In this document: piece after piece, positions 23,701 to 26,700 of the stretch | Layout: each line of letters starts with the position of its first letter | How positions within the stretch are numbered: position 1 is the first letter of the stretch | NCBI GenBank assembly: GCA_020091685.1 | Contig: CM034605.1 | Location: 32,194,425-32,258,424, forward strand | Length of the DNA: 64,000 nucleotides | Source of the DNA: Lutjanus erythropterus | Taxonomy: Eukaryota > Chordata > Actinopteri > Lutjaniformes > Lutjanidae | Direction of reading: 5' to 3' | The notes under the pieces: model-generated | The model's database searches: none | Told to the model about the DNA's origin: nothing | The model's input: only the letters and a program-made list of their open reading frames with translations | Position numbers and translations under genes: made by a program

Positions 23701-26700
23701 GACTTACTCCACATTTGAGCAGTTTATCATTTCTATCCATATTGTACTTTACGTTACCACTTCGTGCAGCTGTGCGCACTAACGTGAGTAAAGCTGACCT
23801 TACCCTCGGCAGAATGAGCAAGACACACACATCATACATACAGTATATCAGTGAGTCATCTCACGCCTTACTTGAGCTCTTGCGCGTTGTTGGCCAGCAT
23901 ACTTCGAATGCTTTTATCAGCTAAAGGACAACCTGAGAGACTGAAAAATACATCAGTGGAACATTAGTTACACCAAAATGACACGTCGCCCCAACCACTG
24001 TAACACAAAGTAATCTCTCAGACCACACTGGTTATCTACGCACAGACGTATGCAAACACATGCGTGCAGAAGTACATCAACCAGGAAATGCAAAAAAAGC
24101 CATGATGCAAGTGCAGGGAGTTGATTTAAAGAAGTTAACCCTCTGAGTATTTGCATTCATACATAAGGATGTCTTGTTCTCATGCTCTGTTGTAGAAAAT
24201 ATTAAATTTACATATGAGGTTGTTTTCAAAAGACGTTGCGAGCTTGTTCAGGGGAAATCTCCTGTAAGTGTAGCCACGTCAGCCCCGAGCCTGATATCAT
24301 TCAGTCCTCGCAGACTCACCTCACACTGCAACACTCAGCAATTATGCTTAAGTCTTCTGCTCTGAATGGTAAATGCTTAGTCTACATTGCACTGTGGGAA
24401 GGGCCTGGAGGACTGAATAACATCAGCTTAGAAGGCTTTACACACGGCCCATTGAGAAATAATTTTATCCCAGGGTTTAGCTTCAAAAATTAGCATGTAT
24501 CCAATCTTTAATTAATTTAGTCTTTCCTTATTCCGTGATACCCTTGTTTCAGGATGTCAGGTTGCCAATAGTCAAAGGGCTAACAAAGAAGAGAGAGACA
24601 TTCTGCCTACAGGTGTTTGACAGCATAGTCGAGGTAAGCTGAAAACAATAAAGAGAAATAGACTGAGAATCCACCAGGAGAAAAGGAAGTCACACCTTCG
24701 ATGTGAGGCGAAATTGCTCGTCAAGTGACCACTTCCATCACACCCCGGTGTGGGACATCTGCCACCGGAAAAATAGACAGATTTATAAGCCCAAAGGGAA
24801 GGAGAAGAAAATGTGAAAATTATAGAAAAAAAATGGTTGTTTCTGATTTTTTTTTGTCATTGTGGGGTTTCATTGTTTCCAGTTTAGCTTTACTGTCTGT
24901 GATGAATATTGTGGCTCCTGAGATCAACTACAATAACGAAGACTGGTGTTGTGTCTTGCAAAGATAAAGTATCTCAAACGAGGGAGGCTACAATGAAGGC
25001 ATCAGTAGAAGCTACCAGCTCTGAGATGGATAAAGCTGTTAAATAAAAGTCATATAGCAAGCCAGCAGCACAGCATGGGGGAGGGAGAGAAGAGGAGCGG
25101 TGGTTCTCTGAGGTCGACCAGAGAAGAGAGAGGGATAGAAACAAAAGAAAGAAATAAGATGAGGAGGGGAAAGCAGAGCATGAAGTAGGGGTCAGGTGGA
25201 GAGGAGGAACACGGGGACAGTTGAGAAGAGTAGCAGGGCTCTTACGTTATCAGGTCCTTCTTACTCTCTTTGCACTGGACATACTTGGGCTTGGGGCTGG
25301 GCATGTTTACATCGGTGGTGTAAGAGCGGTCGTCCAGCAGGTCGGAGAACGGATCCAGGTCGTCCGGCTGAGGAAGGCAAGAGAGGAAGGGGAGGAAGAA
25401 GACAGGGAGGGAAAGGGGAAGACAGAGATGAAGAGGATGTTTTTTGCTTCTCACTCTATCAGTATACATTTTCAAGCAACCATGCTTGTGTAGACATAAT
25501 ATACACAGGGTTCCTACACATTTTCTGTTTCAAAATTCCTAATTTTTCAGACCATATACTATATATGTATGTGCTCACGTTATTTTTCCTGAAAGGAGAA
25601 ATATGTAAAACCACAGCCTTCAGTCCAAACAGTGAACTTGAGCCACAGACAGTAGACTGAATCCCTATTTAATACATTGCCTGCCCCTCGCTTCAGATTC
25701 AAAGCTGCCTGCAGGCTGCGTGGACACTGAACAGGAGAGCAGGACGAGTGACAACAACGTACTCTGACAATGACAAGCGAGGACGAGTCCTCCGCTGTAA
25801 TGATCAGCTGTTTTTAACTGTCAATTTATCTGTCGATGTCAAGTTTGGCCCGTTATCCTGCAAACACAAGCCCACTGCTCTGAAAATGCACACTCTTGTT
25901 CAGTGACTGCCTGCCAGACTCCATTAACATGTTCGTCAATTTAACTTTTATAAACATCTACTCCATCTAAAAGGTTATTAATCATTTCTTGCAACACATA
26001 AACAGACACCTACTTATTCAGTGGACATTCAGCATTAATTTGCACTCTAATTAATGTCAAACAAACAAACAAAAGTTTTTCCAGCCCGCACTGGAAATTT
26101 CAAAGGAGAACATGTTTATTGTGGCGTTGTTGTCAGATTAGCATGGTCATGTTATGATTTAGTATAGTAAATATATTACATATTTATCTTTTAGCATACT
26201 GAATAAATAATATTATATTATTGTTTCCCTCATATATTATAGTCTCTTTAATAAATAAGTTCTGAAAATGAGTTGAAAACAGTTAAATCATTTAATTTGC
26301 ATGGCATCTGTGCATCTGTTCATGCAAACAACAATGAATGCAGTCAAAAAGTTTCCTTATGCAGAAAACATCATCTGTTTACTTTTCTGATAACTACACC
26401 GCTGTCTAACCATTTTCAATGTTGTGTATATATTCAACTCAAAGATACTGCTGCATTTGCTGCCACTACTTTGTCCATGAATGTCTGGATTTGGTACAGT
26501 TGATAAGGCACTTGGGGTGGAGCTGTTTTGCAGGCTGTGACGTACACATGTAGAGGCAGTTTTGTTTAGTTTAGAATGCGATCACTTGCACACCATGCTT
26601 CCTGCTTTCCTTTTGATGACATCAAGTTCACTCTGGCCCACGCTCTCTTACACAGAGATAAACTTTTTGGCTGTACTGGCTGCCTCCTCCAAACACCATG

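Follow-up and report, generated by a model that had tools for sequence, protein, structure and literature searches.

The myt1l gene in the window (the whole 64,000-nt stretch analysed, on the contig here called C15) harbors a 63-nt coding exon that is real and correctly placed and that sequence comparison identifies as orthologous to finger 4 (F4) of MYT1 and ST18. We regard F4 as very probably an ancestral MYT/NZF exon, which would have been kept in C15 and lost from the sister copy on C14 and, independently, from mammalian MYT1L. This finger has been described for MYT1 and ST18; its occurrence in a MYT1L did not come up in the open-access literature searched: the titles and abstract openings covered held no seven-finger MYT1L, F4 loss or fish comparison, and since most subscription papers lay outside this scope, prior publication is possible.

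The exon occupies exactly 24696-24758 on the minus strand, is 63 nt long and has phase 2 on entry and exit. Read from 24758 to 24696, with its flanks in lower case, it is cag|A TGT CCC ACA CCG GGG TGT GAT GGA AGT GGT CAC TTG ACG AGC AAT TTC GCC TCA CAT CGA AG|gtgtga. The upstream exon (25367-25246) ends with ...KKDLI+AC and the downstream exon (23940-23872) starts with T+CTCTCAGGTTGT (LSGC), so that the proposed fit between KDLIT and LSGCPLADK, with phase 2 at both ends, gives joins that are open in frame. The reading is open whether the exon is included or skipped, so that skipping, if it occurs, would be frame-neutral as proposed. Two cysteines and two histidines, in the order C, C, H, H, lie within the 63 nt, and the fifth ligand, the cysteine of LSGCP, is supplied by the next exon. 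In a six-frame profile search of the whole genome, the exon matched zf-C2HC (PF01530) with 42.2 bits (cut-off, 32.3 bits) and an E-value of 1.3e-7, arguing that the reading is not due to chance. Coordinates, phase and the four ligands agree with the original prediction. The spliced finger has the spacing C-X4-C-X4-H-X7-H-X5-C, an exact match to the CCHHC pattern given for the MYT/NZF family in PMC8998804.

The gene lies on the minus strand and its last coding exon closes with a stop codon. Joints were read in frame between F2 and F3, between both halves of F3, from KDLIT through F4 to F6, and between both halves of F7. Its features, from the 5' to the 3' end of the gene, are as follows.

57403..57436, minus strand: second half of F1, at an exon start; the readable sequence yielded no first half.
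46705..46782, minus strand: finger F2, from the zf-C2HC profile search.
42887..42948, minus strand: first half of F3, from the zf-C2HC profile search.
40078..40185, minus strand: exon with the second half of F3; boundaries by eye.
25246..25367, minus strand: upstream coding exon of 122 nt, ending ...ESKKDLI+AC, with 59% identity to the KELIT exon of C14.
24696..24758, minus strand: F4 exon, 63 nt, phase 2-2, with the first four CCHHC ligands; PF01530 42.2 bits, AG acceptor, GT donor, open with both neighbours.
23872..23940, minus strand: 69-nt exon with the second half of F4, including the fifth ligand, and the linker to F5; it has a counterpart in all five MYT-family loci of the genome.
21156..21218, minus strand: 63-nt exon with the first half of F5, from the zf-C2HC profile search; exon read.
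20875..20958, minus strand: exon with the second half of F5 (...EPIR); boundaries by eye.
15919..16140, minus strand: exon with F6 and the first half of F7, from the zf-C2HC profile search; boundaries by eye.
14325..14419, minus strand: exon with the second half of F7; boundaries by eye.
8616..8756, minus strand: last coding exon, ...GIQV and stop, the 3' end of the gene; start by eye.

Thirty-two of the 35 zf-C2HC matches in the genome fall in five MYT-family loci, on C5, C10, C13, C14 and C15. The three others are at C21:116848-116913, C10:12902771-12902857 and C5:26683550-26683618. Over 230 conserved residues, C14 and C15 share 212 (92%), C5 and C10 share 216 of 228, and C13 stands alone in a tree of the five copies; C15 thus groups with C14, apart from the MYT1 and ST18 copies. 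F6-F7 of C13 aligned with the solved structure 2CS8 of KIAA0535, which we take to be ST18, with 142.9 bits. C5 and C10 were assigned to myt1 by elimination and by the linker SLR.LMAAH, which they have in common with 2MF8. The likeness of the remaining pair to mammalian NZF-1 comes from F2 of the sister copy C14, which gave a 92.0-bit alignment with the NZF-1 structure 1PXE that spanned all 45 residues given, 2MF8 outranking 1PXE there only by summing two stretches of ~50 bits each; in PMC8998804, NZF-1 is Myt1l. In addition, an animal-peroxidase gene (PF03098), taken as PXDN, lies ~80 kb past the 3' end of C15 myt1l, on the same strand. This neighbour agrees with the assignment of C15 to myt1l, since PXDN and MYT1L lie together in human 2p25.3 (PMC5597252). 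None of the 44 PF03098 matches listed genome-wide is on C14.

Comparison with the fish copies of MYT1 and ST18 revealed the same 63-nt phase 2-2 F4 exon in both myt1 genes (C5 and C10) and in st18 (C13), which with C15 makes four of the five MYT-family loci; the half finger that follows the F4 position is present in all five. F4 and F5 are built alike, each combining a 63-nt phase 2-2 exon with a next exon that opens with an SGCP half (for F4, in C5, C10, C13 and C15), and the two fingers are nearly identical in protein but distinct in codons. Ser9 is encoded by AGY (AGT or AGC) and Arg20 by CGN in all four F4 exons, as opposed to TCN and AGR in all five F5 exons. The window exon, with AGT for Ser9 and CGA for Arg20, is of the F4 type, and on these codon classes a copy of F5 was rejected. 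A nucleotide tree of the nine exons likewise splits F4 from F5 with a support of 0.943. Inside the F4 clade, the window exon sits with st18 rather than with myt1 (0.865), a placement that 63 nt are too short to settle.

The C15 exon resembles F4 of MYT1 (2MF8) in its CCHHC spacing, in the 63-nt phase 2-2 exon of both fish myt1 genes, in its position before LSGCPLADK and in the 44-residue repeat to F5. It differs in belonging to MYT1L, not MYT1, and at three residues (L for I, S for G and F for Y). Likewise, fish st18 has its 63-nt exon ahead of its SGCPLADK exon, whereas three of 20 residues differ from the C15 finger and the st18 contig has no F1 match among the zf-C2HC matches listed.

The C15 exon differs from the three other F4 exons at 12, 15 and 16 of 60 nt and at three of 20 amino acids in each case, the nearest exon being a myt1 F4 (12/60 nt, 3/20 amino acids). 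The corresponding pN values are 0.08-0.10 and the pS values 0.56-0.86. Random-substitution trials produced three or fewer replacements with P = 4.9e-4, P = 1e-5 and in 0 of 100,000 trials for the three comparisons, and the binomial P for so few replacements under neutrality was <=2e-11. Judged from these substitution counts, neutral drift to so few replacements is very unlikely. The three replacements (I/V to L, G to S and Y to F) are unique to C15; pairs of the other F4 exons differ at zero or one of 20 residues. For comparison, F5 of C15 differs from the four other F5 exons at 0, 0, 0 and 1 of 20 residues. On the C15 branch alone, approximately four replacement and four silent changes were counted, for which neutrality was not rejected (binomial P = 0.098). 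F4 of C15 is thus kept but, given the unique replacements, the near-invariant F5 and this branch test, looks freer than its neighbour F5.

This freedom could be a sign of decay, in which case the exon would be open only by chance and no longer spliced in or functional. The three unique replacements, set beside none or one of 20 among the other F4 exons, and the unrejected neutrality of the branch-only test would fit such a state. Against it, the ligands, the splice sites and the frame are all kept despite strong silent divergence, and the half-finger partner still reads LSGCP in C15, whereas it reads LSSCQ in C14, where F4 is gone. We consider a decaying exon very improbable.

Another possibility is an early loss of F4 from MYT1L, with a later regain in C15 through exon copying from another finger or gene conversion from myt1 or st18, as might be supposed from its lack in C14 and, according to reviews, in mammalian MYT1L. 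A blastn search with the 1305-nt interval from KDLIT to LSGCP against the four other MYT-family loci returned nine matches (E <=0.01), all confined to the F4 exon and a few adjacent bases. Since the similarity ends at the exon edges, those loci are not the source of a recent copy, and recent conversion or shuffling from them was rejected. Moreover, the 12-16 differences in 60 nt, with their high silent divergence, the orthologous phase, the fit to a half finger found in all five loci and, for a copy of F5, the F4-type codons all speak against a regain, which we hold to be extremely improbable.

The favoured reading, an ancestral exon lost elsewhere, can be followed in the second myt1l copy. 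On C14, a 180-nt intron separates the KELIT exon from the half-finger exon reading LSSCQLADKSIRGMMTTNAQELK, and F4 is lacking. Neither of the two short C14 introns yielded a remnant of F4, all eight local alignments doing no better than shuffled sequence (P 0.126-0.93). The two copies, 92% identical over the conserved residues, thus differ in that C14 is without the F4 exon, has the first half of F1 and carries the half finger LSSCQLADK (exon ~32700471-32700539) where C15 keeps LSGCP. The half-finger exons of C14 and C15 differ at six of 23 residues, compared with 12 of 207 elsewhere (Fisher P = 0.004). C14 departs at four of these six positions, where C15 matches at least two of three outgroup genes, and C15 departs at one; at the remaining position, neither agrees. 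Two of the four C14 departures, G to S and P to Q, lie inside the finger. In the myt1 pair, taken as a control, 2/23 residues differ in this exon and 10/205 elsewhere. The excess in the myt1l pair is weakened by this slightly raised value and by the fact that four of the six differences are in the linker and two in the finger. The drift of the C14 half finger, though small in numbers, is as would be expected if loss of F4 had relaxed its partner half.

These results bear on the earlier claim that the exon separates fish from mammals. A fish MYT1L does have F4; however, a single fish genome holds both states, C14 without and C15 with the exon, so the contrast is not simply one of fish versus mammal. 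We take the exact mammalian joint to be KDLIT-LSGCPLADK, without F4. According to PMC9307810, MYT1L isolated from rat has six fingers, three of them C-terminal, and PMC8998804, counting in "pairs", assigns three C-terminal fingers to Myt1l and four to Myt1 and ST18. Mammalian MYT1L (NZF-1) has six fingers arranged 1+2+3, with three reported at the C-terminal end as opposed to the four encoded in C15. The proposal that the exon completes an orphan half finger of mammals is thus in line with these counts of three versus four and with the C14 joint, which lacks the exon; its other part, the exact mammalian joint, is an assumption. Given the review counts and the absence in C14, we favour an ancestral F4 that has disappeared on more than one occasion. 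It would have been lost at least twice, C14 included, a number and a timing that rest on one genome and on review statements. This points to the six-finger MYT1L of textbooks being a shortened form of an older protein.

The predicted total of seven for C15 was not supported by the readable sequence. F4 had been called a seventh finger, whereas the readable sequence contains six fingers (F2-F7) and only the second half of F1. Genome-wide searches picked up no first half of F1 in the readable part of C15, and some of the sequence further upstream consists of N, which leaves a total of six or seven. F1 has an intact second half here, whereas the orphan half in C14 has changed, and we therefore lean towards F1 being present in C15. 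The two fish copies might alternatively have split an ancestral set of seven fingers, C14 keeping F1 and losing F4, and C15 keeping F4 and losing the first half of F1, a tentative and rather improbable idea. If true, it would yield two different six-finger proteins, 1+2+3 in C14 and 2+4 in C15, the duplicated genes having lost DNA-binding modules reciprocally.

The original prediction also held that the F4 donor (GTGTGA) is weak and that the gene may therefore make forms with and without the finger. Scored with approximate vertebrate base frequencies, not with MaxEntScan, the donor AAG|GTGTGA reached 7.75 bits and ranked fifth among the 12 exons compared; lower scores were obtained for the KDLIT donor upstream (6.51 bits) and for the donor of F5 in either myt1l copy (3.70 and 3.24 bits). 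The donor is thus not weak within the family, and the argument from donor weakness to alternative splicing was rejected. Phase 2-2 is common to all 12 F1, F4 and F5 exons compared, so frame-neutrality is no evidence of skipping. A stronger donor-like GT is located at 24319 on the minus strand (GAGGTGAGT, 11.5 bits), 376 nt downstream of the F4 donor. Extension of the exon to this GT would truncate the protein, as the reading frame, counted from the first Cys, is open for 61 codons and then meets a stop.

A regulated cassette exon, with forms that do and do not contain F4 and bind DNA differently at the C-terminal cluster, is nevertheless conceivable. Skipping keeps the frame, the orphan joint is the natural state in C14, and the pyrimidine fraction of the acceptor, 0.65, ranks ninth of 12, on the poorer side. 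A 2002 paper reports, in its title, an additional form of mouse NZF-2/MyT1, NZF-2b, which is reported to differ by a finger. The rank of the F4 donor, above that of KDLIT, and the phase 2-2 shared by all 12 exons, which does not single out F4, oppose this reading, and we judge regulated skipping possible but unlikely. In the favoured reading, the F4 exon would presumably be spliced into most C15 transcripts.

F4 is predicted to fold on zinc together with the LSGCP half from the next exon. The spliced C15 peptide aligned with the F4F5 structure of MYT1 (2MF8) over all 82 residues given, with 155.8 bits and no gap. In the spliced reading, the repeat from F4 to F5 is 44 residues long, as is that from F2 to F3, and the repeat from F5 to F6 is 49. 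F4 and F5 would thus be arranged in tandem with the 44-residue repeat of F2-F3. In PMC5597252, F2-F3 of MYT1L is modelled on 2MF8, and H560 and R569 of human MYT1L are named as DNA-binding; by our own numbering, these match His11 and Arg20, the GH histidine and HR arginine, both of which are kept in F4 of C15. From the gapless alignment, the 44-residue repeat and the kept His and Arg, F4 most likely gives C15 MYT1L a second MYT1-type tandem module for AAGTT sites, the folding and DNA binding of which are predicted from these likenesses. F4-F5 may act at such sites as in MYT1 and ST18, whereas the C-terminal end of a six-finger MYT1L is limited to F5-F6-F7.

MYT1L, described as having six fingers, is involved in neurodevelopmental disease and serves as a reprogramming factor. 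Should F4 be ancestral, mammalian MYT1L would be a reduced form with an orphan half finger, and fish would possess two natural versions of the gene, one that has the second tandem module and one that lacks it. The role of the F4-F5 tandem would thus be testable in one animal, as the two copies differ in F4. Some caution is also called for: where a fish model has two myt1l copies, these may not represent the one mammalian protein.
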